From Morinoia aosen (lineage: Eukaryota > Arthropoda > Malacostraca > Amphipoda > Talitridae), in the NCBI GenBank assembly GCA_030386875.1, contig CM059575.1, forward strand, positions 40,268,859 through 40,332,858: DNA of 64,000 bases, in the 5' to 3' direction. Shown piece by piece: positions 23,401 to 55,549 of the stretch (its first letter is position 1; the number at the start of each line of letters is the position of its first letter). The position numbers and the translations under genes are program-made. The notes beneath the pieces are model-generated. The model was not told where the DNA came from, did no database searches, and saw nothing but the letters and a program-made list of their open reading frames with translations.

Positions 23401-23410
23401 AACAAAAGAT

Positions 23411-23835
23411 CCATACGAGGAGTATTAATTGACAAACCATCCGAGGTGTAAAAATAGATAAGCCATACGAGGCATAATAATCGACAAACTATATGAGGTG
23501 TGCTAATAGATAAACTATCAGAGGTGCACAAATAGATAGACCATACGAGGCATATTAATAGACATAATATACGAGGCGTACTATAATAGACAAACCACAC
23601 GTGGTGTGCTAATAGTCTAACAAAGTTCCATACGAGGAATACTAATTGACAAACCATACGAGGTGTACAAATAGATAAGCCGTACGAGGCATAATAATAG
23701 ACAAACTATACGAGATGTAATATTAGACAATACTATCATAGGTGTACAGATAGATAGACCATACGAGGCATATTAATAGAAAAAATATACGAGGCGTACT
23801 AATAGACAAACCATACGGGTCGTGCTAATAGTTTA
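23411..23835. repeat. Minisatellite with 217-bp higher-order period
   Basis: About 16 units of roughly 27 bp with a core CCATACGAGG-xGTAxTAATAGACAAA. Eight diverged units form a block that repeats almost exactly: CCATACGAGGA occurs at 23411 and 23628 with the same succession of variant units after each. Two inverted units of the same family lie near 30225-30283. The long minus-strand frame across it is repeat-derived. Confidence 0.9.
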
Positions 23836-23908
23836 ACTCTGTCAAGGGTAGTTGAATGAGAAATGAGAAATATTATCTCTTGGATATTTTATATTCCAAG
23901 AGATTCCG

Positions 23909-28335: not shown

Positions 28336-30285
28336 CTTTCATTTATTGGTCAAAATTATTTTTGTCGACTATGATGAGCAACAAAACTGTCAGCTAAATG
28401 CAGCGGAATGAAGGTTTTTTTCATTATTAGTACTGTTTTCTCATCTTTTCTCATTTTTATTGTTTATTTACTGTATTTATATTTAACATCCGTGTGATAT
28501 ACAAACTCTGAAACATATTTTCGTGTGTACATAAGTATACAGGTTTATAGATGTGAGGGTTGTGCTATGTTTTTAATAAATTAAATTTGGCTAACGTTGA
28601 CTCCCTATTTCGAAATCATTCACGAAAATGTTTCAATCGATTTCCGCTGAGCTGGGGGGTGGGGGGGAAGGGGGGGAATTTATTACTTTTTAATTATTTT
28701 AATTTTTCTGTGGGTTTAGTGCACACCAGCACTGAACTTTCAAATCAGAAATAACTCTAAATTTTACTAATTAAAATTATTACTCTGGACCACTGTTTAA
28801 TTTACCTCTACGTACCAAATTTTGTAAATATTAGCCATTTAGAAGTAATATCTGGCCACGATAGTATTCCATTTCATCCCATGTACCCATGTCTGTATAA
28901 TGATGAAGAGAATACCGATATGGATGTGAAACCCGAGATGTTTTCTTTGTTGTTGTTCCTTGACTATAAACTGAGTTTTCTTAAAAATCTCAATTTGGAA
29001 ATTAAAAACCTGTCTATTTTTATGTTTCTCGAAGTCTTTTTCTTTTTAGTTATTTTTTCCAAATAATTTCTTACGATTACAGTGAGCTCGACTGTCATTT
29101 TAGATGTAGTAGGAGGTACAACGGTGTTTTGTATCTTGTAATATTTAATATATATATATGTATTTTCCTCATATTCATTTACAATACGTGCACATATATT
29201 AATACGTGCATGTGTATGTGCATACATATGTACGCACATGCATGGATATATCTGTGCGTACCTGTGTAGGTATATGTATATCTGTATAAATATATATACA
29301 TGTTTCTATTTCCATTTTTTTACTTGAAAACAATCCGGTTAATTAATTTTATTGCACTTGTTAAATGATTTAAAAATAGATCTATTACTACTCCAGAGAG
29401 CGTTCCTGTGAATAGGAAAAATGAAAATTACAATTCGACAAATGAAATAAAGCACAATTTGAGCATATGAATCGAGTAAAAATTATCTTTCCGTCCGTAT
29501 GTTGAACGAGGTATGAATTTTCATTTTGAGTATATGTTTGTTTACGCGTTTCTGTCGAAATTTTGTAGATATTTGCTGCTCATAAGTGATATCAGGCTTT
29601 CACTGTATCTCCATTTTATCTCATGTACCCATGTTCGCATGATGTTGCAGAAAATACCGAGAGAATATGCAATATGATGTTTTTTTGTTGTTGTTGTTCC
29701 TCGACCGTAACTTGAGTTTCCTTAAAATTTCTCTTAGGAAATTAAAAAGCGTGTCATTTTTTACGTTTTTCGAAGTCTTTTTTACTTTTACTCATTTTTT
29801 CTTCAGGTTATTTCTTACGATTACACTGAGCTTGACTGTTATTTTAGATGTAGCAAGAGCAAGATTGCTTTTTATGTTTGTTATTATTTTTCTTATATTC
29901 ATTTTTATTACGAATATATATGAATATGTGTATGTAAGTGGGTGCGTGTATGTGTGTGTGCGTACGCATTCATGTATGTCTATGTGTGTGTATATGCACA
30001 TGCACATGTTCATATATATATATATATATATATATATTTAAACCCATATGTGTATATTTGCCGCTATTTCTATTTTTGCGTTAAAGCAAAACCTCAAGAT
30101 ACATTACATTTTACCTAAAGCTCTGCGACCAGTTAACACTGAACCATAATTCAGAAATAAATATATTGCACTTGCTTAATGATTCAAAACTGGATCTATC
30201 ACTACCCCACAGGGCGTTTCTGCAAATACACCTCGTATAATTTGTCTATTAGTACACCTCGTATGGTCTGTCTATTAGTACAGTG
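28187..30285. repeat. Right arm of the large imperfect inverted repeat
   Basis: Reverse-complement partner of 23411-26876. It is shorter, because the LINE C-terminal segment (about 580 bp in the left arm) and most of the minisatellite are missing. It contains the same repeated modules (CCCATGTACCCATGTC at 28878 and a diverged copy at 29619). The TATATA and GTGTGT tracts near 29930-30040 correspond to similar tracts in the left arm near 24460-24560. Confidence 0.78.
30225..30283. repeat. Two inverted minisatellite units
   Basis: ACACCTCGTATAATTTGTCT and ACACCTCGTATGGTCTGTCT are reverse complements of the 27-bp units at 23411-23835 and mark the outer edge of the right arm. Confidence 0.85.
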
Positions 30286-30350: not shown

Positions 30351-30976
30351 ACACAATTAAAAAAATTAACTCTAGACAAAAAAAAATTTACAGCACTGAT
30401 TCTGTGTCATTATAACAGGTGGTATCGTTAATTTGGTGTACAAGCAGCCAGCAATTCTCTATGAAATTTTTATACTTGTCATAATATTTCATTTAGGTTT
30501 GCTGGCTCACACTTCTTACCGGCTTAATTGGAGCACGGTGTTTACTTTTGTTGTGTGTGTTATGTTTTCCAGAATGTGTGTGGTAGGTTTTTAGCATGTG
30601 TGAAGATGTTGAAGAAAGCCTATGTATTTGTAGGCCTTTCTGTATTTTATTTTCGAATTAATGTCATTAGCTTAATTTGAATTTAGTACAACGTAGCAAC
30701 TTCGATTCTTCACCAGTCTAACTGTCACTATCGTGAGTCTTGTGACCGGCAGTCTGGCCCCAAGTCCATTTAGACCGGCTGTCTGACCGGTCTGGCTGCT
30801 ACACATTCGCATTGTACGCAGACGGCATTCGCTACATGTTGCTACAATATAAAAAATGACAGTATATCGGTAGTGAATTATTCATAATTAACAAAACTGT
30901 ATTTGGCAAGTTTGCCTAAATAACCTGTAACTGTAGACAGCTCTGTTTCTTTTTAATTACTATTTAAATACATTCA
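30351..30976. other. No gene recognised
   Basis: AT-rich sequence, possibly interior of the hAT fragment. It contains CCGGC/GACCGG-rich patches at 30740-30800. Confidence 0.4.
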
Positions 30977-30978
30977 TT

Positions 30979-33359
30979 GTGCTGCCTTCGCAGCATTTTA
31001 GAAAATTCCTACTGTCGAACAGCGATCGAATATTTATACTTTCGAACCTCGATGACATTTTTAATGTCATGCATAAATTCCTACGATTTAAGCTGTATAA
31101 ACGGTCGTTGCACACAACCTCTTTCTACAAATCTTGGCAATCCAAGTTACTTGCACGGGAACTCTGCAGCAAAAGAAGAACGCTCGCCGACCTATCTACG
31201 CAACTGGAAGCCATCGAGGATGAAGTACGGTCCACTTACTCTACTCTTGACGTTCACGTCGTCAGGAGACATGCAAGAGTCTCCAGGGACCAGTTTCAAG
31301 CACATACCAAACGAATTCATTTGAAAAAACTAAGCACCTTGGGCATCTACAACGAAATTCAACCTTTTGATCCAGATAAAGTAGTTCACAATTTTAGTTC
31401 AGTTCAGCTACCTCATAGGGTAAAAATTCTCTTAGCATTCGATTTAGAGTTCTGTCTGCCTGTTTATAAACTAAATTTGTTTAAATATTTTCTAGCTTAT
31501 GAGAAATTAGCTCTTGCACTTAAAAACAAAGCGTGGACTAACTATCCGGAATTCATAGACAATTTGAAAACATTAGCTCATTACCAATATTACAGCTTTA
31601 ATCCACATAAAATATAGAAGTGACATATTCCTCTCGAAATCGATGGCCGCTACCGAGAACTTATTAATCTGCAAACCTGACAAAGGTAAAGGAGTTGTGT
31701 TGATTGAACGCCAAAAATATCAAGAAAGTATGCTTCATTTAATATCTGACACCTCCAAATTCGTTCCGATTACAGAACCAATGAATAAAATAATACTGAG
31801 GGTTGAAGACAGAATTAATAATTTCTTACGTGGCTTGAAACAAGTAACTAACGCGCAATTAGAAAATTTAAAGACTTTGCACGTGTCAGGCTCTTCTTCT
31901 GCGGTACTGTATGGTCTACCAAAAATTTACAAACCTGATTTTCGTCAAAATTTCAATTTAGGCCAATTGTAGCAGCGTATAATAGTCCGAGTTATAAATT
32001 ATGTAAACCAGTCCTCAATCATCTAACTTCAAATGAGTTTGCAGTCGATAATGCCTTCAAATTTAGCGATAATATTAGAAGAATTCCAAATGTAAAAAGT
32101 TTAATCATGCCTTCATTTGATGTTGAATCTCTTTACACTAAAATTCCTCTTCAGGAAACTATTGACATTTGTCTAAACCATTTATTTTTAAGATGGAAGC
32201 TCAAAATTCATGGGCTTAACCCGCAAAATGTTCAGTACACTGTTGGAACAATCTGTAATGCCATATTTCTTCATATCCGCAGGCAAACTTCATAGACAAA
32301 TAGACGGTCTAGCAATGGGGCTCCCGTTGGCACCGACCCTTGCCAACATCTTTATGTGTTTCCACGAAACAAAGTGGCTAGATGAATGTCCCTCTGATTT
32401 TAAACCAGTTTTTTACAATCGATACGTAGACGATACCTTTGTCCTATTCAGCCATCCATCTCATGTTGAGCAGTTCTTAAACTATCTAAATCATAAGCAT
32501 CAATCGATTAAGTTCACCGTTGAAGTTGAAAATAATAACTCCCTGACCTTTCTTGACTGTCTAGTGACGAGAGACGGAGATCACTTTCAGATGTCAGTAA
32601 ACTGTGAACCAACTTTCACAGGACTAAGCTCCAGTTTCTTCAGTTTTTGTTCAATAAGTTTCAAAATTAATTGTGTTCAAACTCTAATCAATAGGGGCTA
32701 CAAAATATGTTCAACCTTCAAAAATATTCATCGTGAATTTGAATTTTTGCTCCCATTTTTTACAACTAACGGTTTTCCATTGGGTGTGATCAATTCGCAA
32801 ATTTAGAAATTTCTGTCTAAGCAATACGCGTCGCAAACTATTAGAGAAAGCAATAAAGACTATCTATACTGCTCGTTCCCGTATTTCGGAACGCCTTCTG
32901 AGAAATTGTCATTAGAGTTAAAATTATTGTGTGAAAAATACTTTGAAAACCTTCAGTTATGCGTTGCTCTAGTTAATAATTTTAAGGTGGCATCTTTTTT
33001 CCGGTACAAGGGTACGCTTCCGATGGGGATGCGGGCCTCTCTGATTTATTCTTACAGTTGTGTGCAGTGCACATCATCGTACGTCGGCATGACGTCACGG
33101 AATTTTTATACCAGAGTGGCTGAACATGCAGGGTAGAAGCTTCCGCACTGGGAATCAATTAGCACATCCCTCTCATTCCGCAGTACGCAATCGTGCAGAA
33201 AAATACAACGTACCGATAACCTCCAAAGACTTAAAAATCTTAGATGCAACTTCAAATTCGCATGACCTTAGGATTTTGGAGTCGTTATATATTTTTAAAC
33301 GAAAACCAGTCCCCAACAATACCGATAGCTCATATCCTTTGCAAATAGTGACTAGGTAG
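30979..33359 (+). pseudogene. Decayed Penelope-like retroelement (PLE-1)
   Basis: A single-ORF retroelement coding for a Penelope reverse transcriptase with a C-terminal GIY-YIG endonuclease. In order: N-terminal region (30979-31617), CKPDKGKGVVLIER (31643-31972), FDVESLYTKIPLQETIDICL (32107), GLAMGLPLAPTLANIFMCFH and the catalytic YVDDTFVLF (32210-32806), then the endonuclease YVGMTSRNFYTRVAEHAG (32906-33136) and HPSHSAVRNRAEKYN...ILESLYIFKRK (33126-33359). Frameshifts near 31613, 31965, 32285 and 33126 and a stop near 32805 kill it. It shares layout and clear similarity with the better-preserved element at 55789-58591. A hammerhead motif follows at 33476. Confidence 0.95.
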
Positions 33360-33469
33360 CCATCTTGTCGATTTTATTTTGTAATATTTTTATTCTATTT
33401 TCGTGATCTCTTTTAATGATTGTCTACAATATTTTGTTTTTCTTTTATTGCAGACATAATGTTTGTATT

Positions 33470-33512
33470 TTTGAACTGATGATGGAGCTGCACTCCGAAA
33501 CGTTTTCCAATT
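33470..33512 (+). ncRNA. Hammerhead ribozyme motif of PLE-1
   Basis: The core reads CTGATGA (33476-33482), a stem II GGAG-CTGCA-CTCC, then GAAAC and GTT, which fits the conserved hammerhead order with a cleavable GUU after a two-base-pair stem III (A-U, C-G). Stem I pairs GAA before the core with TTC after it. PLE terminal repeats are known to carry such minimal type I hammerheads. The position, about 120 bases after the endonuclease stop, fits that rule. Confidence 0.75.
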
Positions 33513-33662
33513 AAATATGATTAAGTTTTTTGGAATTTTCCTCGTTTTTAAATTTCTAATAAAGTTGCGATTAAAACAATCAACTAACCCGTTCAAAAAT
33601 ATACTTTTCTATTCTTTAGGTCCCGGGATCAAGCAAATCAATTTTTTGAGTTCGCTAATGTA

Positions 33663-34433
33663 AGATCCTTCCCGAGTTTTCTGTATAAGCCTCATTTTGT
33701 GTGGGTCATAATTTCTAAAATATTGCACCTAACAATTTGAAAGTAGTCTCATTATAAAGATCGATTTATTCTCCAAATGTGAGTGTATAATAAAACTGTC
33801 ATACGCTCCCTGGAAGAAGATGAAGAGCAAGTTTCTCCTAGTTTCTGACCGATTTTTCAAAAGGCTCATTTTGTGTGAGTCATAATTTCTAAAGTATTGC
33901 ACCTAAAAATTTGAAATTAGTCTCATTTTAAGCGTCAATTCATTCTCCAAATGTGAGTGTATAATAAAAATCTCATACGCCCCTCGGTGGGGGACCGGCG
34001 CGCCATTTTAGAGAACTTATCTAAGATCCTTCCCGAGTTTTCTCTATAAGCCTCATTTTGTGTGAGTCATAATTTCTAAAGTATTGCACCTAAAAATTTG
34101 AAATTAGTCTCATTTTAAGCGTCAATTCATTCTCCAAATGTGAGTGTATAATAAAAATCTCATACGCCCCTCGGTGGGGGACCGGCGCGCCATTTTAGAG
34201 AACTTATCTAAGATCCTTCCCGAGTTTTCTCTATAAGCCTCATTTTGTGTGAGTCATAATTTCTAAAGTATCGCACCTAAAAATTTGAAATTAGTCTCAT
34301 TTTAAGCGTCAATTCATTCTCCAAATGTGAGTGTATAATAAAAATCTCATACGCCCCTTGGGGGATGAAAATTACCCTTTTTGTTGGGGTAACTCGGGAA
34401 GGATCTAAGATGGGTTCTCTAAAATGGCGCGCC
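33663..34433. repeat. ~185-bp satellite, four units plus an inverted end
   Basis: Units begin near 33663, 33843, 34024 and 34211 with AGATCCTTCCCGAGTTTTCT or a diverged form, run through CCTCATTTTGTGTGAGTCAT and end with CATACGCCCCTCGGTGGGGG and CGGCGCGCCATTTTAGAGAA. The last two full units are almost identical (187-bp period). At 34386-34433 the unit edge recurs inverted (AACTCGGGAAGGATCTAAG ... AAAATGGCGCGCCGGTG), so the array closes on a foldback. Confidence 0.9.
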
Positions 34434-34434
34434 G

Positions 34435-35060
34435 GTGTCTACAAAGGTCATTTTGACAACGTGTAAAACTTTATTGCTAAGAAGCGCGTACCAAATAGTA
34501 CCCAAAGAGTTGGAATATCTGCACAATATTTTTGTGCGCAACAATTATCTAAAATATGTTGTCAATCAAATACCCTCCTGTAACTTTGACCGTACCGAAA
34601 CAGAAAATATTCATTGGCCTTCCGTTCCAAGGTTACATTAACAGTGATTTTAAAAGAGAGTTTTTGATCGTTGTGCGAACATTTTTATACAGCAGTTGAC
34701 GTGCACGTTCATTATAGGAATACATTTAAGATAGCGTCTTTTTTTAACAGGAAACAGCGATAGGGTGTAAGCTGAAAAATAACTGGATATATGTGTATGT
34801 TTGTGATTGCTGCCAGCAATCGTTCGTTGGAGGCATTACCCTCCAACTATTTATCGGTCACAGCCAACATTCAGGATTTTCTCACATAAGTGGCCGCTCA
34901 TTTGCCTGTCCCCCCAGTTCGCCATTAGAAGGCATTGCAATAGCTCCAATCACCCTTTCAAAAAGTCTAATTTTTCTTTCCTATGCAAAGCCTCTAATGA
35001 ACAAGACTCCTGCATTCTCCAATCTCTTTATATATGTACGAATAAACCATCACTAAGTTA
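34435..35060 (+). pseudogene. Fragment of a second Penelope-like element (PLE-3)
   Basis: Plus-strand frames encode a PLE C-terminal stretch: KELEYLHNIFVRNNYLKYVV (34435-34641), then VYVCDCCQQSFVGGITLQ and GHSQHSGFSHISGRSF (34793 onward), corresponding to the linker and GIY-YIG nuclease region. It is more diverged than the other two PLEs and has several frameshifts. The upstream RT is absent; the satellite abuts its 5' side. Confidence 0.65.
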
Positions 35061-38024: not shown

Positions 38025-38798
38025 TGTGGTGGTATGAACACACACCACCACACAAGCTTAGAAGCGCCACCTCATAGCCTCAAAGCGCCAGTACTAAACG
38101 ACCGATAATCAGAGCTAAAGTCTGGCGCTGGGGTGCCGGACCGAGCTTTATAAGCAGCCTGCTTCGAACAGTCAGGCAACGTCGATAGAAACCTCCGTAA
38201 GTATAGCACAAGCCTAGACGGCGAAAAGAGGGCACCCCAGTCTTGGCCAATCGGAGACCTGGACGGGTAGAGTCGGCCTCCAGCGAGGCCTATATAAACA
38301 GCCGCGCAGCCAGCGGAGCCTCAGTACACTCGCAGCGTCCCTGATATTCACACTAAGTCTCGACGCTCCGCCAGCACCTCACCCGTGGCCTTCCCCGCCT
38401 CCTCGGCTGCCAGCCGCCACGCCTTGTTGCTTGCTAGACGCACCAGTTCCCTGCTTGCGCCTCTGGTACTCCCTGGTCGGACGCTCTGCCAGCAGCAGCC
38501 CCACCGGTCTGCTCTCGTCCTCCAGCTACGCAGCGTCTGCCCGACTACCGTCGGTCCGCCAAGACGTCATCGGTTGCTGTACTGCTCGACTGTCATATTC
38601 CCTTGTGCCATTATTGTCGGCAATCTTTATAATAATACGGCGTTTATTCCAGTTGTGTTTTCCTTATCCTGTCGGGTTCGTTTGCACCTCAGGCACTCAC
38701 TTCGGGGAAAGATATTTCACAAGTCTATCGATATTCACAAGTCAATAGATATTCACAAGTCTGCCCGGAGGTAAAGCAGCCTGAGGGAGAACACCACA
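38025..38798 (+). repeat. 5' LTR of the Ty3 element
   Basis: 774 bp, TGTGGTGGTATG...GAACACCACA. The first 30 bases form a GTGGTG/CACCAC foldback. It matches 41524-41968 plus 43157-43490 with only a handful of substitutions and short indels. Confidence 0.93.
38291..38325 (+). promoter_or_regulatory. LTR promoter: TATA box and initiator
   Basis: TATATAAA at 38291-38298 is followed 30 bases later by TCAGT (38321-38325), the arthropod initiator consensus. A CCAAT motif lies upstream (TGGCCAATCGG, about 38247-38257). Transcription would begin at the A of TCAGT, defining the U3/R border. The same arrangement recurs in the 3' LTR near 41790-41825. Confidence 0.75.
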
Positions 38799-38832: not shown

Positions 38833-39651
38833 ATGGCTGGGAGAGATGTCCGGTTACCCGCCTCCAGTGGGGATATCAAGGGATGGCTCCTTCACTGCGA
38901 TGTTTTTCTCGCACAAATCCCGAATCTGGACTACGGTTCAAAGTTCGGGGCGCTCCTAGGAGGACTACCCACGCACATTGTATCCGGAGTACAAGAGATA
39001 CTACTGAATCCCCCGGCAAACGGAAAATACGACGCATTAAAGGCGGCGTTGACGCAACGTTTCGTGCGTCACGACGAAGAAACAAACTACAACGCCATCG
39101 TTAAAATAACGCTGGGAGACAATACGCCTTCCGAGTTGCTCCTGGAAATGACGCGTCTCAACAACTGTAGACAAGCTCCGCTACCCCCGTCAGTCATCCG
39201 CTCGATGCACCTTTCAAAATTGCCAGTGGAAGCACAGCCACTGATTGAAGCTTTAGGAAGAGGAAAAACGGACGAAGAGTACAGGGAAATTGCTGATCAA
39301 GTCACAGCAAGGCAATCCGCGTGTCGGTCCTCAACTGCTGAGCCCCTCACCGTAAACACTGTCAAGCCATCACTGTCTCCGACAGTGTCAAGAGCCGAAT
39401 TCGACGCAGCTATGAAGGAGATAGCAGAACTTAAAGAAATGTTAGGAAGGGCGTTACGCCCGCAAGAAAATGTCCACCAAGCAGACAATTGGCGGAATCA
39501 AGCCCCGGCGCCCAGAAACGTCCAAAACGCTAACAAAGGAAGCAGGCTCGAACAAGTTTACTGCTACTACCACCGTACCTTCGGCGATCGTGCAAGAAAG
39601 TGCACGCAACCGTGCAGCCTTGCGGGAAACGACGGCCGCGGAGGATGGTAG
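38833..39651 (+). CDS. gag: Gag of the Ty3 element
   Basis: 272 codons; the structural protein that packages element RNA. Residues 1-165 are a compact capsid-like region (DIKGWLLHCDVFLAQIPNLD near the start). A helical, probably coiled-coil, segment spans about 186-208 (AEFDAAMKEIAELKEMLGRA). A CHCC zinc finger lies at 244-261 (C244, H247, C257, C261: CYYHRTFGDRARKC), the form found in CsRn1 elements instead of the usual CCHC knuckle. The start is the first ATG after the primer site. The frame is intact and ends after a -1 slippery site at 39624-39630. Confidence 0.92.
   Translation: MAGRDVRLPASSGDIKGWLLHCDVFLAQIPNLDYGSKFGALLGGLPTHIVSGVQEILLNPPANGKYDALKAALTQRFVRHDEETNYNAIVKITLGDNTPSELLLEMTRLNNCRQAPLPPSVIRSMHLSKLPVEAQPLIEALGRGKTDEEYREIADQVTARQSACRSSTAEPLTVNTVKPSLSPTVSRAEFDAAMKEIAELKEMLGRALRPQENVHQADNWRNQAPAPRNVQNANKGSRLEQVYCYYHRTFGDRARKCTQPCSLAGNDGRGGW
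39624..39630 (+). promoter_or_regulatory. -1 ribosomal frameshift heptamer G_GGA_AAC
   Basis: GGGAAAC sits in the phase needed for tandem slippage: in the gag frame the codons are GGA AAC (39625-39630), and a -1 shift gives GGG AAA in the pol frame. It lies seven codons before the gag stop, inside the gag-pol overlap (39600-39651), and GC-rich sequence follows. The same heptamer drives -1 frameshifting in the retrotransposon-derived gene PEG10. Confidence 0.75.
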
Positions 39652-41504
39652 GCGCCCCATCTTTCGCGCAGGCAAGAGCAGGCGAGCTGTTGTACGTTAA
39701 AGACGCGAACAACGTCCGATATCTGGTCTTGAAGAACGAGATTTCCCAGCTCACCATGTTAGCGCACCCGGCTCCAGAAGGCAAGACAATCCTAGTTACG
39801 GACGCCTCTGCCACCGCGGTGGGGGCCGTATTGCAACAGGAAATCGAAGGAGAGCAACTACCAGTAGCCTTCTTTTCAAAGAAGTTGGACGACACGCAAC
39901 GCAAATACAGCACCTACGACCCGGAGTTAATAGCCATCTTCTTAGCAGTCCAACACTTTGAACATTTCTTGGAGGGCCGGAGTTTTGAGATCAAAACGGA
40001 TCACCGACCACTCTGCTTCGCTCTTCACAAATCTACGGAGGGCAGCAATCCACGCGTGGCCAGGCAACTGTCGTATCTCTCGCAGTTCGACTGTGAGATC
40101 AACCACATCAGTGGCACCACCAACACTGTAGCAGACGCGCTATCGCGTATGGTGTCGGCAATCTTGCCAAAAGAACCTTCAATCGACTACGAGGAAATAA
40201 TGAAGGAACAGAATGAAGATCCAGAATTAGAAGAGCTCCTGAATCCAGCGTCGATGAGTGCTCTGAAGATACGACCTATCAATACACACGGCGGCAAAAT
40301 ACCCCTGTGGTGCGACGTGTCCACCGGCCAGGAGAGGCCGTACATCCCCAAGAGTTGCCGAAAAACAATATTCACGCATTTTCACGGAGCCAGTCACCCC
40401 GGAATTCAAGCTACGCGAGATCTCCTGAGACAACGAGTAATCTGGCCCGGCCTCAACAAAGATGTCGGCAAGTGGACACGAGAATGTATTCCGTGCCAAT
40501 CGAGCAAGATTACGAAGCACGTCAAGAGCCCACTTGGAAAAATGCCAGTTCCAAATGAACGATTCCAAACCACACACGTGGACATCGTCGGACCGCTGCC
40601 CGTATCGCAGAATTACCGGTACCTTCTTACGTGCATCGATCGTTTCACAAGATGGTGCACGGCTATACCAATGATGGATTGCACAGCAGAAACGTCTGCC
40701 CGCGCCTTTCTCCAGGGTTGGGTGTCTTCGTTTGGAGTTCCGACGACGATCATCACGGACCAAGGAGTACAGTTCGAATCAACTCTGTGGAGGAACCTCC
40801 TAGCAGCTTTGGGCACAAAGCGACACCGGACTACAGCCTACCATCCACAAAGCAATGGCTTGGTGGAAAGACTACATCGACGATTGAAAGAAGCCCTGAA
40901 AGCTACTGTGACCGACGCGAACTGGGTGGACGCTTTGCCCCTCCTACTTCTTAACATCAGAGCCACACCACACTCAGACGACAACGTTTCGCCGGCAGAA
41001 ATGGTGTACGGGCAGACGTTACGCCTCACCGGAGAACTACCTGCAATGAAGAACGAAACTCTCCCAGCGGGAGAATTCCTGCAAAGGCTACAAGAAACAA
41101 TGACACGATAACAGCCAGTACTCCCAAGGCAGCAGGGGCCTACAGACATCAATGTCCCAAACGCCCTGCTAACGGCAACCAACGTTTTCGTTAAACATGG
41201 AGGGGTCAGAAAATCATTGCAGAGACCGTACGATGGCCCTTTTCGCGTTCTAGAAAGGACCCCGAAGTACTTCACCTTAGACATACGAGGGAAACCTACC
41301 AATATAACGATTGACAGGGTGAAAGCAGCGCACCTACCCGACAGCAGCGAAACAGAAACGGAGCACGTGGAACCAACAAGCGCAAAAGTACACGATGTCT
41401 ACGAAGGAGTTCCCTTCCCCCAGGCAGTGGTGGCTCCTGAACAAGGAATCGTAACTAAATACGGAAGAAGAATCAAACCTCCACTGAGATACTCGGAAAC
41501 TTAA
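39624..41504 (+). pseudogene. pol: Pol of the Ty3 element: truncated protease, RNase H, integrase
   Basis: Read by -1 frameshift from gag. A protease start (ELLYVKDANNVRYLV) runs to about 39728 and then jumps in frame to LKNEISQLTMLAHPAPEG and RNase H (TDASATAVGAVLQQ, YSTYDPELIAI, TDHRPLCFAL). The protease DTG and the whole RT palm are missing. Integrase follows: an HHCC finger (HFHGASHPGIQATRD...CIPC) and the DDE core with VDIVGPLP, ITDQGVQFES and NGLVERLHR. One nonsense codon (TAA, 41109-41111) separates the core from a C-terminal tail (41112-41504) ending GRRIKPPLRYSET, typical of the group. Integrase could still be made up to that stop. Confidence 0.9.
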
Positions 41505-41523: not shown

Positions 41524-43490
41524 TGTGGTGGTATGAACACACACCACCACACAAGCTTAGAAGCGCCACCTCATAGCCTCAAAGCGCCAGTACTAAACGA
41601 CCAATAATCAGAGCTAAAGTCTGGCGCTGGGGTGCCGGACCGAGCTTTATAAGCAGCCTGCTTCGAACAGTCAGGCAACGTCGATAGAAACCTCCGTAAG
41701 TATAGCACAAGCCTATACGGCGAAAAGAGGGCACCCCAGTCTTGGCCAATCGGAGACCTGGACGGGTAGAGTCGGCCTCCAGCGAGGCCTATATAAACAG
41801 CCGCGCAGCCAGCGGAGCCTCAGTACACTCGCAGCGTCCCTGATATTCACACTAAGTCTCGACGCTCCGCCAGCACCTCACCCGTGGCCTTCCCCGCCTC
41901 CTCGGCTGCCAGCCGCCACGCCTTGTTGCTTGCTAGACGCACCAGTTCCCTGCTTGCGCCTCTGGTACTGTTATGGAGCTCTGTTCTTGATGTCATTCTT
42001 TCTTTTCTTTTCGTCTTTATAGCTCTCTTTTGACGGTCGTGATTGACGATCACATTCTTATATTTTTGTTAGCCAGAGATAAACTGGGACCTTTCAATGT
42101 CCACAAATTTAATTAATGAATAAGCGGCAAATGAATGCAATTTTGGAATAAATTGGTAGCGTGGGATACTCTCCACAGATATTGATAATCCATCTTTCTA
42201 ATTAACGGGAAATTACACGAGGAAACGCATCGACAATTTATTCCTTAATCTCATTACAAAAGGATATTCTAAAAGCGAAGTAGACCTAACATACTAAGTT
42301 ACATTTTGATTAATACTTTCAATATACGCTGAAGGCAAAGACATAATGTGCGCTGAAGGCAAAACCTAGTGTGCTGAAGGCCAAGTAATTAGAAGTAAGC
42401 GCTTAAGGCGCGACGACGACAACCTACGCACAAGAGAAGTCGACACGGGGATGCACATTTGGAAACGTATTGAATGAGAACTCATCTTAAATTCCGGTTC
42501 CGATGTGGTGTTGCTTTATATCGAGCGGTCAGCCATTTTATATTATATTACGTTATCGTTAGAAGAGTGATCACTTTAATATGACACAGGACAAATACAA
42601 CGTCAGTTGAACAGGGAACCCATAGGGGCCGCCCGAGGGCAAGGAGGGAAATCTTATGTACGTGCTCTCTCTTAGGCTGCCGCGCTCTCTCTCTCCTGGC
42701 TCACCCTTGGTAGCTGTGCGTCTGCACCTCCTCAGCAGGGTTGGCATCGTACGATAACCTAAATCTTTAAAATGGATTGATTCATAATTGAGCGTTATAA
42801 ATAACTCTATCGTCTTTAATTACTTCGTAATGTGAAATATCAATTTATGATGATAGCATTAATGATCTAAGAAAAGTTAGGCATAGAATAATACGGACAT
42901 TATTTAGAGTAGACCTTCTAGTAGCGATGTCTAGGAATTCCTCTTCGGTCGGTTGACACCTTGCTTCCTTGCGCGGTCTTGGAGTCGACGTACAGTAGAA
43001 GTAGAAGGAAGGAAGAATAACTACTTATCCCGACCTGCGAAGTCTGATAACCGTCTTCGAAGCACACGGCGTCTCTCTCTCTGCTTTGGATCATTCCGAA
43101 CATAAAGAGGCGTCCCTCGTTCTAAAAGATCCTCACGTTGTGATAAGATCACAACAGTACTCCCTGGTCGGACGCTCTGCCAGCAGCAGCCCCACCGGTC
43201 TGCTCTCGTCCTCCAGCTACGCAGCGTCTGCCCGACTACCGTCGGTCCGCCAAGACGTCATCGGTTGCTGTACTGCTCGACTGTCATATTCCCTTGTGCC
43301 ATTATTGTCGGCAATCTTTAAAATAATACGGCGTTTATTCCAGTTGTGTTTTCCTTATCCTGTCGGGTTCGTTTGCACCTCAGGCACACACTTCGGGCGA
43401 AGATATTTCACAAGTCTATCGATATTCACAAGTCAATAGATATTCACAAGTCTGCCCGGAGTGTAAAGCAGCCTGAGGGAGAACACCACA
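41524..43490 (+). repeat. 3' LTR of the Ty3 element, split by an insertion
   Basis: LTR sequence runs 41524-41968 and resumes at 43157-43490. The intervening 1,188 bp is a separate element flanked by GTAC. Confidence 0.92.
41969..43156. mobile_element. Solo LTR inserted in the Ty3 3' LTR
   Basis: A 1,188-bp block beginning TGTTATGG and ending CACAACA, flanked by a 4-bp duplication GTAC (41965-41968 and 43157-43160). TG...CA ends, a 4-bp duplication and absence of coding sequence fit a solo LTR left by recombination. It holds short repeats (GCTGAAGGC several times near 42330-42380). The parent family is unknown; it is unrelated to the host LTR. Confidence 0.72.
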
Positions 43491-44860: not shown

Positions 44861-47800
44861 TTAAATTAGGTCGTAGACATCTATCACACGAAGATAGTTC
44901 ATTAATTCCTTGACGTCTAAATGGCGTCCCAATACCGTCTCGACGGTAGGTTGTAGCGTTTGGCAAGCCTTTATACAATTTCTACTAATTGTTAGACTTT
45001 CACATTCTATGATTAGGTGTTTGACAGTTAGTGTTGAGTTGTTGCAAAACTCGCACACTGGTGCAATATCAGGTATCTCGTTGTTCATCAGGTAGCCATG
45101 CGTTAAGAATGTGTGTCCTATTCTGAGTCTGTTAACTATTATTTCCTCTTTACGTGATATTTTACCGAAGTCCAACTCTATTCCTGGTGATGGTTGTATT
45201 TCCCTTAATTTGTCTCTGCAATTTTCCCACCTAGTTTTCCACTGGTTAATCACGGCTTGTCGAATTAATGGTTTCCAATCTGTGTAGCAAATTAGGATAA
45301 ATTCTTCGTTTTTTTGGGTTGCGTTCTTGGCTGCAGTATCTGCAGCATCGTTATCGCCTATTCCGACATGGGAGGGGATCCAGCATATGTTGATGGCTTT
45401 GCCGCCTTTTTGTTTTTCGTGTATGTCGTGTTGTATTCGGCGTAGTACTGGATGGTATGTCTCGTACTTTAGGCTGTTAACGACACTCAAGGAGTCGCAG
45501 TATATTACGAATTTTTTATCTCTTTTTTCATTAATGATGCCAAGGGCCAAGTGGATGGCGTGTATTTCGGCTGAGTATATTGAGGCCTCTTTCGGTAGCG
45601 TTGCAGAGCGAACAATGGTGCCACATACTGCTGCCGCTCCTGTGCCATTTTCTCCTCTTGAGCCGTCTGTGTATATAGTTACATATCCGTCATATTTTTC
45701 TTTTGTCATTCTTTTAAACTCTTGACGAATTATGTATTCAGGGGTTTCGTTTTTTGGTAGTTCGGTGAGGTCGGTATTTATTGTTGGTTTTGTTAGTGCC
45801 CATGTGGGAGTATTAATGTTTAGTAGTCGGTATGAAAAGTCTGGTTTAACTCGATTTTTCCGGAGGCCAAATTTTTCTATCAGTATTTGCATTTTAATAG
45901 CGAATGTTGGAGTTATTTTCCTATTTTGGAAGAGTAGTCGGTTACTCGGCGTCACAGTGTAATTGAAGGCGGGGTTTCCATGTTGACTTCGGATTTTGTA
46001 GTAATAACAGAGGGATAGATAGTTTCGCCTAATATCGGGAGGCATTTCATTGCAAATAATGTATAGACTATTTGTTGGGCTGGATTTAAATGCTCCTGTA
46101 GCGATTCGTAGTGCTTCGGATGTAATAGACTCGATGGGCTTTAGAGTTGTTTGGCTGGCAGAGTTATAGATTATTGATCCATAATCGAGGATTGATCTTG
46201 TAATGCTTCGATAGATTTTGAGGATCGTGGTTTGGTCTGCTCCCCAGCTTTGAGCTGTTATTGATTTTAATAAGTTCAGGCTATCATTCCCTTTTTTCTT
46301 TAAAGCAGTGATGTGTTGTTGCCAGTTCAATTTTTCATCGAAGATCAGGCCGAGGAATTTATGTGAGTTTGTGTATTGAATGTTTTCATCATTGAGTTTA
46401 AGTATTGGGCTGAGGAAGAGTCCGGGTATGGTATTGAAATGTATTGCTTTGCTTTTACTGGATGAGAATTTGAAGCCATGATTTTGGGACCACTTAAATA
46501 TTTTATTGATACAGGATTGCATTTTGTCTTGGATAACCTTGAGGTCTTGGTGGTGGTATCCAACTTGTAAGTCGTCAACGTATAGTGAGTGGTGGAATTT
46601 GTTGTCCGGTGGGATCTGCTTGGCTATGTCGTTTATTTTGAGGGCGAATAACGTGACCGAGAGGACACTGCCTTGAGGGACTCCGTTTCGCTGTTCGTAA
46701 ATATTTGAGCTATAGTTGTCTATTCGGACACTTAGTGTTCTACGTTCTAGGAATTTGGCGACAAAAGTTGGTAATCTGCCCCTGAGTCCGATATCGAATA
46801 AATCCCGTATGATCCCATATCTCCATGTTCTGTCGTAAGCTTTTTCAAGGTCGAAGAACACTGAGATGAAGTGTTCTCTGTTTGCGAATGCTAATCTTAT
46901 GGTTGAGTCTAGTCTGACCAAATGATCTGTAGTGCTACGCCCCTTTCTGCATCCACACTGCTCTTTACTAATTATATTGTGCATATCTAAGTATTCGATC
47001 AGTCGATTATTGATCATTCGTTCCATTAATTTGCACAGACAGCTCGTGAGTGCGATGGGTCTGTAGTTATTTGGTTTACTATGGTCTTTCCCGGGTTTTG
47101 GGATTGGTATTATTATCGAGTGCTGCCATTGTGGTGGGAAGTAGCCCGTTGTCCAGAATTTGTTAAAAGTGTTCAAGATGTATTGTTTAGCTGGTAGTTT
47201 TAGGTGTTTGATCATGTCGTATGTTATTTTGTCGTTTCCTGGTGATGTGTTTTTAGTTTTTCTTAGGGCGGATTCAAATTCATGCATATGGAAAGTTTGG
47301 TTATAGATTTCTACGTTTGGCGAACTGAAATGGATCGGTATAGTTTCATTTGCGGTTTTGATTTGTTGAAATTCAGGGGAATAGCTTTGATCGCTTGACA
47401 CTTCGCTGAAATTTTCAGCCAGTTTATTCACAATATCAGGGATTGTGCTGTAGTGTATATTGTTTTCGATCAATATATGGACTTTTCTTTGTACTCGACC
47501 TTTTATTTTCCTTATTGTTTCGTATACTCTGGCCATTGGTGTATATTTATTAAGTTGGTTTACGAAATTCTTCCACGTTTCCTGTTTGCTTGCTCGAATT
47601 TTGTATTTATGATTTGCCCTTGCTCGTTTCCAGTTAATTAAGTTAGTAAGATTTTTATTGCGGTGGTATTTCTTGTAAAGTTTTTCTCTTTCTTCTTTTG
47701 ATTCTTGGAGTTCTTTTGTCCACCATGGTTTGGGGTAGTATTTTCCTGGTATATAAGTTGGGATGGCTTTTTCAGCTGCTGAGTAGAACCGCTGGTATAA

Positions 47801-48523
47801 GTCGGTGAGTAGTTGTTCGTTATTAGTTGTTGTGTTCAACATCGGCTTGTTCCATGCATTGTTATTGGAATATAGATCCCAGTTAGCTTTTGAGTAGTTC
47901 CAGATAGTTGATGGGGGTTGGTTGGGACGATTTTCGTTAAGGTAGGTGATCAAAATTGGGCAATGATCGCTATCACCCGGCGAGTCGAAAGCAACCCAGT
48001 CTAATAGCACGGCCAATGTAGGTGAGCAAATTGTCAGATCGATCGCTGATTCTGAATTGTATCCTATTCTAGTGGGTGAACCAGTATTTAATAGGCAAAG
48101 GTTATTGTTTGTAATAACAGTTTCTATCAGCTTCCCCCTATTATCTGTATTTTTGCAGCCCCATATGGTGCTGTGTCCGTTGAAGTCGCCGGCTAGGATG
48201 AAAGGATTCGGTAGTTGGTGGATTAGGTTATTTAGTTTTTCGTTTGTGACTGTTTGTCTACCGGGTATGTAGATGCTGCAGATGGTTATCAGCTGTCCTA
48301 TGTTTACTTGAATGGCAACGCTTTGTAGTTCAGTCTGTAGATTCAGTTCACAAAAAGGTATTGAGCTATGGACATATATTCCAACACCTCCATGGGGGGT
48401 TCTGTTGTAATGACCGTGTCGTAGCACATTACTGTAGCCGTTTATTCTAAACTGGCAGTTATCCCATAGCTTTGTTTCTTGAAGTGCTATTATACTGGGT
48501 TGGTGGTTGTTTATTGTTTCCAT
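44861..48523 (-). CDS. LINE ORF2: endonuclease, reverse transcriptase, RNase H
   Basis: 1,220 open codons. The APE endonuclease is at about 1-190 (QETKLWDN, GDFNGHSTIWG, SDHCPI), the RT at about 400-720 (CGCRKGRSTTDHL, FFDLEKAYDRTW, NGVPQGSVLS, catalytic YVDD), RNase H at about 960-1095 (IYTDGSRG, SAEIHAIHLAL, YCDSLSVVNSL, WIPSHVGIGDNDAAD), and a C-terminal finger (CEFCNNSTLTVKHLIIEC). The natural start is probably ATG at 48586, in the same frame, which adds the conserved ILQWNCQGIRG endonuclease motif, but codon 5 is TGA (48572-48574). Starting at 48523 would omit the conserved Asn of that motif. Presence of RNase H places it with I/Nimb/Loa-like elements. Confidence 0.95.
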   Translation of the reverse strand: METINNHQPSIIALQETKLWDNCQFRINGYSNVLRHGHYNRTPHGGVGIYVHSSIPFCELNLQTELQSVAIQVNIGQLITICSIYIPGRQTVTNEKLNNLIHQLPNPFILAGDFNGHSTIWGCKNTDNRGKLIETVITNNNLCLLNTGSPTRIGYNSESAIDLTICSPTLAVLLDWVAFDSPGDSDHCPILITYLNENRPNQPPSTIWNYSKANWDLYSNNNAWNKPMLNTTTNNEQLLTDLYQRFYSAAEKAIPTYIPGKYYPKPWWTKELQESKEEREKLYKKYHRNKNLTNLINWKRARANHKYKIRASKQETWKNFVNQLNKYTPMARVYETIRKIKGRVQRKVHILIENNIHYSTIPDIVNKLAENFSEVSSDQSYSPEFQQIKTANETIPIHFSSPNVEIYNQTFHMHEFESALRKTKNTSPGNDKITYDMIKHLKLPAKQYILNTFNKFWTTGYFPPQWQHSIIIPIPKPGKDHSKPNNYRPIALTSCLCKLMERMINNRLIEYLDMHNIISKEQCGCRKGRSTTDHLVRLDSTIRLAFANREHFISVFFDLEKAYDRTWRYGIIRDLFDIGLRGRLPTFVAKFLERRTLSVRIDNYSSNIYEQRNGVPQGSVLSVTLFALKINDIAKQIPPDNKFHHSLYVDDLQVGYHHQDLKVIQDKMQSCINKIFKWSQNHGFKFSSSKSKAIHFNTIPGLFLSPILKLNDENIQYTNSHKFLGLIFDEKLNWQQHITALKKKGNDSLNLLKSITAQSWGADQTTILKIYRSITRSILDYGSIIYNSASQTTLKPIESITSEALRIATGAFKSSPTNSLYIICNEMPPDIRRNYLSLCYYYKIRSQHGNPAFNYTVTPSNRLLFQNRKITPTFAIKMQILIEKFGLRKNRVKPDFSYRLLNINTPTWALTKPTINTDLTELPKNETPEYIIRQEFKRMTKEKYDGYVTIYTDGSRGENGTGAAAVCGTIVRSATLPKEASIYSAEIHAIHLALGIINEKRDKKFVIYCDSLSVVNSLKYETYHPVLRRIQHDIHEKQKGGKAINICWIPSHVGIGDNDAADTAAKNATQKNEEFILICYTDWKPLIRQAVINQWKTRWENCRDKLREIQPSPGIELDFGKISRKEEIIVNRLRIGHTFLTHGYLMNNEIPDIAPVCEFCNNSTLTVKHLIIECESLTISRNCIKACQTLQPTVETVLGRHLDVKELMNYLRVIDVYDLI

Positions 48524-48629
48524 TAGTTCATCTTTCTTTCCCCTGATGCCTTGGCAGTTCCACTGCAGGATTCATACGTTAGCCATGGGGTGTGTTTGAT
48601 TTGATTTTGTTATTCAATCGTTCAATTAG

Positions 48630-51173
48630 TTACTTTCTTTTGGGTGATCTATCTCTAATCCTAGAGTCACGAGAGTAGTGTGATTGTTCCTCATCTGAGT
48701 AAATTTGTCGTTTATCATGTCTGTTGCGGCTGTAGGTGGGGGATCGTGATTTTGATCGTGATCTTGGTCGCTTCTTGTTTTGGGTTTTGGAAGGTTTGTG
48801 CTGCTTTGGGGGTTTGAATTCGTTGAATATTCGTCTGGCTTCTTGTCTCATAATAGGGTTGCATTCGCTCGTGCCATCTTCCTCATTTTCAGATCCTTCG
48901 GCTGTAGTTTCAATATTAATTGTGGATTTGAGCAATTGTGTTGGGTTGGGTTTAATGCGGAGTATCTCTTTTTCGCATGTTTCGTGGTCGCGTTGTGAAG
49001 TTTGCGGTGGTTTGGTTTCTGGTGTATCGGTTGTGTTATCAGTTGTACCTGGTTCGTTACAAAGTGGGGGAGCCATATTTTGTTCGGTGATCGTTTGGTT
49101 TTTGGGAGCCGCCATAAAGGGTTGGGGGGTTGGTACTTTGGGTATTTGATCCGTTCGATTTCTGGTTATTTGTGCGTAGCTTTGGTCGAGTTGTGGGGAT
49201 CGTTTGTGGTATATTATAAGGGCTTGTTCTCTTGATACGTTTTGTTTAGTACGGATAGAAATTAGTTCTTGTTGCTTGCGTTGTTCCGGGAAAGTCCGGT
49301 CTCCAGTTTTGTGATTGTTTCCGCAGTGGTAGCATGTCAAGTTGTTTTCCGTGCAATTTGTTGCTTCATGGCCTTTTGTTGCGCATTTTCCACACACGAA
49401 CTCTTCACTGGTACATCTTTTAGCAGTATGGTTGTATTCCAAGCACTTTTTACACATCATAGGGGGGTCGAAGTGTTCATATATCCTACTCTTGCAGTCT
49501 TGGCCAAGGATGTCGATATACTCAGGGGGGGTTGAGCCTCTGAAAGTTAGAAGTATTGCTTTTGCATTTGTGTTACGGCTTTTTATCCAATTTGCTGGTT
49601 CGACATTTTTGATTATATGGTTTTCCATTAAACCTTGTTTGAATTTCTCGAAGTTGGTGAAGTCGTAATTATAGATGTAGGCGAGTCCTTTTGAAAGATT
49701 TACATAGTTATTTTCTGTTACTTGCACAGGGATGTTGTTTATGTCTTTGATTTTCTGTATTTCATCTTTTTGTCGTGTGTGATCTAATTCTACAATAAAT
49801 GTGTTTTTGCCACCCGATCGAATAGATTTGGGTTTTCCTTGGATTTGGTTTGCAATACATTTTTCTAGGAGCCATGGAGTAATTTTCCGCTTTTCGTTTT
49901 CCTGCATTGTTATATTGAAATGAGTTGTGGGGGTGTTCGTATCTGATATTGGTATCTCGGAGTGTCCTGTGACTATCTGTACAGCACGACGCCTATTAAC
50001 TCGTTGTTCTTGTTGGACTTTGCATATTTCTGTTTCCATGATATGTTTCGGGCATTCTCTGTGGCCAGTTTCATGTTGACGCTTGCAATGCATGCAGGAG
50101 AGGGCGCTGCCACAGTGTTCGCTGTCATGGCCTGTTTCTCCGCAGCGTTTACAGTTTGCTTCGTTATGGCAGTGTTTGGCTGTGTGGCCGTAGTTTTGAC
50201 ATTTGTGGCAGATCATTGGTCTATTAATAAATGGGTATACTATCGTATCTGATTTTTCGCCTGGGATATATATAGAGTCTGGTGTAGTGTAGCTATTAAA
50301 GGTTAGTAGGAGTGGGGTGGTTTGGGAGAATCGAGTTTTAATGAAGCTGGCACGGACAGCGTCACTGATATTGTACTGACTCTTTAGGCCTTCCACAAAA
50401 TCTTCCATATTATCTACATCGTATTCTTGAATATATATTAGTCCTTTGGATTGATTGTAGTATGGGTGTTCGCTGATCTGGCAATTAATGCCGTCGACGT
50501 TATTAAGTCTGGTGATGCGCTCAGATTGGGGTTTGTTTCGAGTTTCTATGATAAAGCTATCTTTACCTGAATAAGTTATTCTTTTCGCCTTCAAACCAGT
50601 TATTTTGACTATTTCTTCTTGGAGGCAAAATGGATTTATTTGGTTTCTCTCTTCGACTTTGAATTTGACCGAGAAGAACTTTGTATAATGGTCGTTCTTC
50701 GTCATTTCTTGGTTCAACGATATGGGTGTGTATTTATTAGCTTTGCTTTGTTTTCTCACATTTTCTTTCTCGCAGCCCATGATTTTACTGTTTTTCTCTA
50801 TGTTCTGCGCTTTCGTCATTTCTAGGATTTTTTCGAGTGTATTTTCGATTTTCCTTATTCGATCGTCTACATTTTGTGCTTCTTTTTCAACTTCATGTTT
50901 ATCGGGGTTGATGCATTTGGTTGCATCACCTGCCGCAAGTCTATTCAGCACTTCATTTAATTTAGCCTCCAATTGGTCCACCTTACAGGTAGCACCGTTT
51001 GGTTCCGGTAGAGTTTTTTCGGTTGTTTGGTCAGATGTTTCATTGTTTTCGCTTATCTTCCTGGTGATGGTGTTAGTTTTGGGGTTTGTTGCACCTACGT
51101 TGGTAGCAGTGCTTAGGTTGTTTTTGTTGGGGTTTATTCGTTGTTTGAATTTGTTTTTATTTTTGGCGTACAT
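48630..51173 (-). CDS. LINE ORF1: gag-like protein with duplicated domain
   Basis: 847 codons; the nucleic-acid-binding ORF1 protein. A Lys/Asn-rich leader and a predicted coiled coil (about 64-125) precede two tandem copies of the same module. Copy 1 (about 163-400) and copy 2 (about 417-645) each have an RRM-like part (SKGLIYIQEYD / SKGLAYIYNYD; LLLTFNSYTTPDSI / ILLTFRGSTPPEYI) followed by three zinc knuckles starting CHKCQNYGHTAKHC and CKKCLEYNHTAKRC. In the last knuckle of copy 2 the fourth Cys is replaced by Phe. A Pro/Thr-rich stretch and an Arg/Ser-rich basic tail (RPRSRSKSRSPTYSRNR) end the protein. The frame is intact. Confidence 0.93.
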   Translation of the reverse strand: MYAKNKNKFKQRINPNKNNLSTATNVGATNPKTNTITRKISENNETSDQTTEKTLPEPNGATCKVDQLEAKLNEVLNRLAAGDATKCINPDKHEVEKEAQNVDDRIRKIENTLEKILEMTKAQNIEKNSKIMGCEKENVRKQSKANKYTPISLNQEMTKNDHYTKFFSVKFKVEERNQINPFCLQEEIVKITGLKAKRITYSGKDSFIIETRNKPQSERITRLNNVDGINCQISEHPYYNQSKGLIYIQEYDVDNMEDFVEGLKSQYNISDAVRASFIKTRFSQTTPLLLTFNSYTTPDSIYIPGEKSDTIVYPFINRPMICHKCQNYGHTAKHCHNEANCKRCGETGHDSEHCGSALSCMHCKRQHETGHRECPKHIMETEICKVQQEQRVNRRRAVQIVTGHSEIPISDTNTPTTHFNITMQENEKRKITPWLLEKCIANQIQGKPKSIRSGGKNTFIVELDHTRQKDEIQKIKDINNIPVQVTENNYVNLSKGLAYIYNYDFTNFEKFKQGLMENHIIKNVEPANWIKSRNTNAKAILLTFRGSTPPEYIDILGQDCKSRIYEHFDPPMMCKKCLEYNHTAKRCTSEEFVCGKCATKGHEATNCTENNLTCYHCGNNHKTGDRTFPEQRKQQELISIRTKQNVSREQALIIYHKRSPQLDQSYAQITRNRTDQIPKVPTPQPFMAAPKNQTITEQNMAPPLCNEPGTTDNTTDTPETKPPQTSQRDHETCEKEILRIKPNPTQLLKSTINIETTAEGSENEEDGTSECNPIMRQEARRIFNEFKPPKQHKPSKTQNKKRPRSRSKSRSPTYSRNRHDKRQIYSDEEQSHYSRDSRIRDRSPKRK

Positions 51174-51956
51174 ACTCCCGGCTTCAGAGGGGGTTTCCCC
51201 GCCTCGAAGTCGGGGTTTGAGGTATTCGCTGATTGTTGCCAGAAGTGCTTAAAGTTTTACTTTGGGATCCAAAGTAGTAATCCAAAATGGACTATTGGTC
51301 TGCGTAACTTAAGTCTATTCTTATAGGCTATTTAAGGGCCCTGGAATATAGGGCAAATTAAAGAGAAAATAACTACGCAAAAGAGACCCAAGCTCCGAAG
51401 AGCTCGGGCCGCCGCCCGACTTTGTTCTACCCAACAACAGGGAATTGGAAAAAAAAACTAAAATCTTAATCCCTCGAAAGAAAACTCAAAAGATAGAGGA
51501 AAGAGCAGTTGGGTATTTCAACGGTACCACCACGAGAAGGTGCCGGGTCAGCTGGATACCTGCTCGTGAGTAGGTATTCCTGTATCAATCCTTGTCTACG
51601 ACTTCTTTCCCTTCACCAAGCTCAATAATTCAATAATTTGGTACCAGTAAAATTGGTAAAGGGAACAGTGAAAATTCTATTTCTCGCAAGAACCCGATTG
51701 TTCCTTCATCTTGAATGTTTAATAGAGGGGTGATATAATTGCTTAATAGCTGTTTGGAAACGAGCTACACGCCTTTAGGAAGTAATTGAAGTGATGCCTA
51801 TTTACATTAATCTATTATGAGCTTTCAAATACTTTCATGCATGCTAGCCAAATTGAAGACAGTTTAGGCAGCAAAATCTAGCGGTTTGAATCAGAGCTTT
51901 TTTGTGCATCAAAAAGTAATCGTTAATTATTATTATTGTTTGTGGTCGCTTTTCCA

Positions 51957-55441: not shown

Positions 55442-55549
55442 TCAGTGGTCGAGGATCCTGAGGTTGCCCGACACAATCTTGTTCTCAAGGATGGCGCCGG
55501 GGGGGATGTCGATCCTGTCGCCGTGGTTAGCGATGATAATCACCGTGCC
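55442..55549 (-). CDS. UGP: UTP--glucose-1-phosphate uridylyltransferase, last exon
   Basis: UGP makes UDP-glucose from UTP and glucose-1-phosphate in the cytosol, feeding glycogen, trehalose, chitin and glycan synthesis. This exon encodes the highly conserved C-terminus: [20 protein letters not shown] then [15 protein letters not shown] and TGA (55442-55444). The region forms the left-handed beta-helix used for oligomer contacts in animal UGPs. The acceptor is TTTCAG just before GGCACGG (AG at 55550-55551), phase 0, and joins the exon at 58693-58791. The intron between them is filled by a Penelope element in the same orientation. Confidence 0.97.

Follow-up and report, generated by a model that had tools for sequence, protein, structure and literature searches.

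Minimal hammerhead motifs in two diverged Penelope-like elements of the amphipod Morinoia aosen

The two elements and their surroundings

The stretch of Morinoia aosen DNA analysed here (the window; 64,000 nucleotides) holds two elements, PLE-1 and PLE-2, which are Penelope-like by the sequence of their coding regions. PLE-1 is represented by ORF remnants on the plus strand (30937-33347), in several broken frames that share 45-67% protein identity with PLE-2 over the matched stretches. The PLE-2 ORF lies on the minus strand in two parts, an N-terminal one at 57219-58355 and, in another frame, a C-terminal one at 55972-57330. RVT_1 matches above the Pfam cut-off were obtained in both elements (E 2.9e-08 and, for the C-terminal part of PLE-2, 8.9e-08). 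The GIY-YIG endonuclease domain (PF01541) scored under the cut-off on the PLE-1 piece (E 0.069) and gave no match on the PLE-2 piece; the C-terminal part of PLE-2 has by eye a YVG...R..EH region, which we take to be an endonuclease-like motif. The predicted structure of the PLE-2 protein, with a mean pLDDT of 40.5, was too poor for use.

The 3' arm of PLE-2 (55788-56103, minus strand) is a pseudo-LTR in the sense orientation that includes the 3' end of the ORF. It recurs inverted at 58276-58591 (plus strand), the two arms making up a 316-nt inverted repeat (99%) with a head-to-head junction at the 5' end of the ORF, whose first codons lie inside the inverted arm. The layout is like that of the inverted pseudo-LTR Penelope elements of Adineta vaga, which join an ORF head-to-head to a shortened inverted pLTR, the pLTR including the first 12 ORF codons (PMC3846280); the word "hammerhead" is absent from the text of that paper, whereas the arms of PLE-2 carry the motif described below. 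No 5' pseudo-LTR was found for PLE-1 at its locus. The ends of the PLE-2 arms share no word of at least 6 nt, which means that no target-site duplication was recognised. The element is inserted in an intron of the host gene UGP2, on the gene's own strand, between its last two coding exons (55442-55549 and 58693 to about 58795, minus strand). They code for the C-terminal end of UTP-glucose-1-phosphate uridylyltransferase (E 1.6e-36 to 4r7p and 3r2w), and their inner borders, flanking PLE-2, read GTAAGT and TTTCAG.

Directly downstream of PLE-1 is an array of ~187-bp tandem repeats (33655-34436, plus strand) that ends in a 46-nt inverted copy, followed by a third, strongly decayed PLE C-terminal remnant without a hammerhead (34559-35058, plus strand). 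Elsewhere the window contains direct repeats of ~2 kb, 99% alike (6807-8787 and 13531-15509), and two sets of near-identical direct repeats (38025-38470 / 41524-41969 and 38466-38798 / 43157-43490), between which an ORF at 39534-41111 with RNase H and integrase domains is LTR-retrotransposon-like. A LINE-like element on the minus strand (44861-48571 and 48630-51248) has an endonuclease, reverse transcriptase and RNase H frame beside an 872-aa frame without a Pfam match. Two tRNA-Leu (CAG) genes (150-233 and 628-711, minus strand) sit in a 97-nt duplicated unit, 98% alike, and a minisatellite of 26-nt units (23401-23837) has a unit related to it, by eye, in the other orientation at 30227-30282.

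Hammerhead motifs in the window

Both elements contain a motif of the general form CTGATGA-T-stem II-loop-stem II'-GAAACGT-H, starting at 33476 (plus), 55874 (minus) and 58505 (plus). The PLE-1 hammerhead (33473-33507, plus strand; core match 33476-33501, predicted cut after 33504) consists of stem I GAA/TTC, the core CTGATGA, an extra T, stem II GGAG/CTCC with loop CTGCA, GAAA, CGT, and T as H17. PLE-2 has stem I TAG/CTA, stem II GATC/GATC, loop TAGAT, and C as H17, and has them twice: in the sense 3' arm (55843-55877, minus strand; core match 55849-55874, predicted cut after 55846) and, antisense to its ORF, in the inverted 5' arm (58502-58536, plus strand; core match 58505-58530). An earlier note made from the letters of the window had reported the same motif order and spacing in both elements, with the extra T and with stems I and II differing between them; all of this, the places of the three matches and a 5-nt loop II were confirmed. 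Its view of the sites as specific instances stands for two independent sequences and not for three, because the two PLE-2 sites are one sequence lying in both arms of a single inverted repeat and are to be counted once.

In hammerhead residue numbering, both elements show the core CUGAnGA ... GAAA with A15.1-U16.1 and H17. The single T inserted after CTGATGA is within the 1-2 nt at most reported for inserts between CUGAnGA and the stems (PMC10085705). The palindrome ACGU, able to join two cores, stands in place of the absent stem III, and the motif lies in a Penelope-like pseudo-LTR. That PLE terminal repeats host minimal hammerheads, as the earlier note stated, is in print, with minimal forms lacking helix III (PMC6155905, PMC7761336), and the window cores are like the PLE-type minimal type I hammerhead (Cervera and de la Pena 2014; Luense, Weinberg and Breaker 2017) in pseudo-LTR position, lack of helix III and conserved core. 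They share their core and stems I and II with the canonical type I hammerheads of animal retrozymes, which unlike them have helix III and loop-loop contacts and lie in retrozyme repeats of 170-400 nt (PMC7229834).

The loose pattern CTGATGAN{6,36}GAAAC has three matches in the window, where shuffles average 0.40 and one in 100 reaches three. A strict descriptor requiring a 4-bp stem II, GAAACGT and H17 finds just three sites, and none in 300 dinucleotide-preserving shuffles; relaxing it to at most two core mismatches and a stem II of at least 3 bp brought no further site in the window. Rfam gave no hammerhead over the whole window at gathering score, so that the window cores are not assigned to its hammerhead families, and none at E<=10 in 33380-33600 and 58440-58600. 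The earlier note had proposed this search and had said that lack of a covariance-model match would refute it; for Rfam, that is formally the outcome. Rfam hammerhead models expect a stem III, which the PLE-type class does not have, and this presumably accounts for the missing match.

Between PLE-1 and PLE-2, five of the seven stem pairs have changed on both sides and none is broken, all 14 cells pairing. If the partner is slid by 1-3 columns, no more than one such two-sided change is left; the shuffle control for the five compensated pairs is weak, with two sequences only, 21 of 500 shuffles reaching that number. With a covariance model of PLE-2 alone (two identical rows, with structure), PLE-1 came out as the best non-self match of the window (25.4 bits, E 2.6e-4); the runner-up, at 12458, scored 18.4 bits (E 0.024) and lacks the core. 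A sequence-only model built from those letters gave PLE-1 just 4.1 bits (E 6.5) and ranked it under other matches. Short calibrations make these E-values rough. Judged from the sequences, covariation supports stems I and II in the window cores. The selection that kept the pairing acted on the source elements, not necessarily on the window copies.

Hammerhead cores across the genome

The host assembly (1,990,973,590 bases, or 1.99 Gb, in 29 contigs) contains 9,203 matches to the core pattern (4601 + 4602), as against 37 (20 + 17) for the reversed pattern, a ~250-fold excess in a count that includes related copies within families and is thus not one of independent events. The pattern fixes CGT, so says nothing on CGT constancy, and it misses cores mutated in any fixed letter. 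The exact PLE-1 core occurs three times, one of these being the window copy. A hundred places were listed, all on one contig (C1, 0-19.7 Mb), and the insert and orientation counts are those of that stretch: 73 of the 100 have a 4-bp stem II, as do 33 of their 50 distinct inserts (mean 8.6, maximum 17 in 2000 end shuffles).

When 48 distinct sequences from the window and fetched loci are taken together, pairing holds in 297 of 336 stem cells, while shuffles, which take no account of kinship, average 196 and reach 213 at most; stem I by itself pairs in 116 of 144 cells. All seven pairs are kept in 23 of the 48, and 25 lack at least one. GC, AT, TA and CG are all seen at the third stem II pair, and AT, GC, CG and TA at the second stem I pair. 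H17 is T in 38, A in 5, C in 3 and G in 2, and so anything but G in 46 of the 48. These cells, the five compensated pairs of the window and the success of the leave-one-out structure model uphold the claim that pairing is kept while sequence changes. Of 55 distinct contexts (loci L121-L170), 33 have a match to PLE protein upstream of the core, at no more than 1.5 kb and on the core's own strand. In 26 of these the match extends to the ORF C-terminus (residue 440 or beyond of the PLE-2 piece), at 80-294 nt from the core; in the other 22 contexts the queries used detected no PLE ORF over that distance. The motif's sequence, its pairing, the compensatory changes and the repeated occurrence downstream of PLE ORF 3' ends are shown by these data.

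Neighbouring cores point mostly away from each other. Of the pairs within 6 kb among the 100 places listed, 17 are minus-then-plus, one is minus-minus, one plus-plus and none plus-minus; within 11 kb the figures are 20, 1, 1 and 3, all counts being blind to partners with a mutated core. Same-strand neighbours thus make up 2 of 19 pairs within 6 kb, and only one of these is of one family, the plus-plus pair being of two. PLE-2 has the same outward-pointing arrangement, and at loci L153, L158 and L167 PLE protein matches stand head-to-head between two cores. Orientation matters because PLE-type hammerheads are described as cleaving as dimers with a palindromic stem III, a model that needs tandem sense copies in cis (PMC6466107); unlike the tandem hammerheads described there, inverted outward pairs dominate here (17 of 19 within 6 kb among the places listed). 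A second sense copy in tandem, which the literature ties to activity in cis and not to class membership, was found at neither the PLE-1 nor the PLE-2 locus. Composites with outward cores at both ends were also seen on C1, of ~1.0 kb (7622059-7623121, 9185955-9186990, 15060983-15062011 and 16065914-16066975) and of ~1.3 kb (825021-826342, 6920942-6922265 and 9391922-9393226). Their copies are 88-99% alike over the long stretches compared, and the match runs through almost all of the sequence fetched, which left their borders out of reach.

When the extra T is swapped for A, C or G, the genome yields 324 + 336 matches (control 66 + 44), several of which resemble T-to-C changes of common families. 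Set against 9,203 matches with T, this makes the extra U a nearly fixed trait of the genome's cores of this form. A9 and the extra T begin an AUG in 47 of the 48 distinct sequences, where stem II starts with G. Frames from this AUG are mostly short (MEF, MI, MS and ME, of 2-3 codons, in several loci), some running to 26-88 codons, and those of the window stop after 10 codons (PLE-1) and 2 (PLE-2). A coding reading of the motif was rejected, since the frames stop soon or differ between elements. Reading on from the predicted cut, one meets the first ATG between +6 and +16 in 32 of 56 contexts (loci L121-L175 and the window; mean 9.2, maximum 18 in 300 shuffles of the next 60 nt), and in several loci this ATG opens a similar hydrophobic peptide. 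In PLE-1 an open frame of 48 codons begins 12 nt after the cut (MIKFFGIFLVFKF..., 33517-33660, plus strand), resembles post-cut peptides of several other loci, and from its sequence is possibly the start of the PLE ORF of a downstream unit. In PLE-2 an open frame begins 16 nt after the cut (MYFKSIVFTIIFNL, 55788-55829, minus strand).

Splice-like sites adjoin the core. From its sequence, a putative PLE-1 intron (33348-33453, plus strand) would run from a GT at the conserved ORF end to a pyrimidine-rich ...TTGCAG 22 nt before the core, and a putative PLE-2 intron (55880-55982, minus strand) from AAAATAG|GTATTA to ...TTGTATTTCAG, 5 nt before it. In 45 of the 56 contexts the 25 nt preceding the core include a pyrimidine-rich YAG, as do those preceding 332 of 2240 positions drawn at random from these loci; in 27 of the 45 it is 0-2 nt from the core, that is, inside stem I. 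The putative 5' splice site, a GT[AG] close to the conserved end of the ORF, is seen in 21 of 34 contexts (controls, 547 of 1700 positions) and is weaker than the acceptor-like site. Introns are known in Penelope-like elements in general. One lying inside an ORF is mentioned in PMC3846280. Splice sites adjoining PLE hammerheads were found in no paper of the literature searched, which did not extend to the founding 2014 and 2017 PLE-hammerhead papers; PMC7761336 speaks of backsplicing only.

Activity and alternative explanations

On this sequence evidence, both sites are very probably PLE-type minimal hammerhead ribozymes, with dimeric cleavage proposed for their source elements. The class is already known, and what is new here is an extra U that hardly varies, a mostly inverted arrangement of neighbours and an acceptor-like site beside the core. 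The layout would be type I, of stems I and II and the catalytic core, with self-complementary ACGU replacing stem III and one unpaired U between A9 and stem II. In the source elements two sense copies on one transcript, or two RNAs meeting, would pair ACGU with ACGU, and each core of the dimer would then cleave after H17, probably aided by the element's own protein. Cutting would leave a unit whose first ATG stands close to its 5' end, at a distance of 6-16 nt in 32 of the 56 contexts. The window copies are probably relics that do not cut in place; cleavage there is doubtful because neither element has a second sense copy and because the PLE-2 core can be buried in its own hairpin. Inside the UGP2 intron the sense copy faces a near-perfect antisense one, and in a predicted two-arm fold with a 30-A spacer replacing the real 2.2 kb it is fully paired to the inverted arm, at -503 kcal/mol.

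A drawing of the homodimer that has both stems I, both stems II and ACGU/ACGU needs neither a crossing nor a non-canonical pair, and completion of each core only by a second through ACGU would fit the residues and the layout. In the folding model this dimer is not the minimum-energy pairing (-7.9 against -25.5 for PLE-1, -6.3 against -24.8 for PLE-2). By analogy, an unfavoured dimer and a competing monomer hairpin agree with the protein need of the Anolis element, whose hammerhead cleaves only with PAc protein added (PMC11167929). There, C3G or G8C abolishes cleavage and the double mutant partly restores it; earlier self-cleavage of a PLE hammerhead at 3-25 mM Mg2+ is cited in the methods. Frangieh et al. 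saw no RNA-seq reads that fell on the cut site, and in their in vitro assays mutating the hammerhead left insertion unaffected (PMC11167929). PAc (Poseidon of Anolis carolinensis) is like the window cores in its stems I and II and in a core overlapping the ORF start region, and the text of that paper suggests that it has the same extra U, C3 and G8 preceding a start codon and the ORF running from stem II, consistent with CUGAUG|AUG. Its cut lies 26 bp inside its ORF (PMC11167929), unlike the cores here, where the nearest ATG past the cut is 6-16 nt away in 32 of 56 contexts.

The competing hairpin could itself be what selection has kept, for some role that involves no cutting, protein binding or priming for example: stem II lengthened by a U-G pair, and GAUG pairing with CGUY, would make one long hairpin of the core itself. 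As a monomer the 35-nt piece has this as its minimum-energy fold in both elements (-5.7 and -6.7, where stems I and II give -2.8 and -2.2), and the unimpaired insertion of the Anolis mutants suits it (PMC11167929). It leaves stem I unused, yet stem I covaries (116 of 144 cells, with all four pairs seen), and it does not predict CUGAUGA, GAAA and H17, which makes it improbable. Still less can be said for a motif that is mainly a translation signal, CUGAUGAUG placing stops and starts (UGA UGA / AUG AUG) between tandem PLE units and its hammerhead likeness being secondary. An AUG from A9 in 47 of 48 sequences, the near-universal T and the place of the PAc start codon, where stem II begins (PMC11167929), would accord with it, yet the A9 frames stop after 2-3 codons in several loci and after 10 and 2 in the window, and neither the covariation of the stems nor GAAACGT is explained; we consider it very improbable.

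A chance match in an AT-rich, repeat-laden window has next to no probability. Loose matches do arise in shuffles, and core matches are common in large collections: 120 were listed in viral contigs for CTGATGATN{9,30}GAAACGT. Among those listed, however, 7 had a 4-bp stem II, 10 a 3-bp stem I, and one both with H17, and this control, the strict-form shuffles (0 of 300) and the genome excess refute the chance reading.

Taking the sites as PLE-type minimal hammerheads, one may imagine them as a splicing- and translation-linked switch, with the acceptor at or over stem I, the extra U forming an upstream AUG, and the product AUG 6-16 nt past the cut. Cleavage would remove both the leader that carries the intron and the upstream AUG, the main ORF staying behind, and inverted outward pairs would put a sense ribozyme near the 3' end of each strand, giving active dimers in trans. 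We regard this elaboration as unlikely. What PLE hammerheads do is described as unknown (PMC7761336), and the 9,203 exact cores, in many families and with stems varied and the extra U hardly so, form a rich natural data set on the features kept by selection, the need for tandem partners and the tie to splicing or ORF start.

No PLE relatives were found in viral contigs. A candidate hammerhead-like sequence of the same minimal form, which may be a chance match, does occur in contig IMGVR_UViG_3300034084_000080 (3007-3044, minus strand), at the end of a small mechanical ORF; its stem II pattern had no match in the phage collection, and the candidate none in Rfam. With stem II GGGC/GCCC and stem I TTA/TAA, it is the one match to that stem II pattern in the viral contigs and scores 31.3 bits with model R2, the best in 80 loci.
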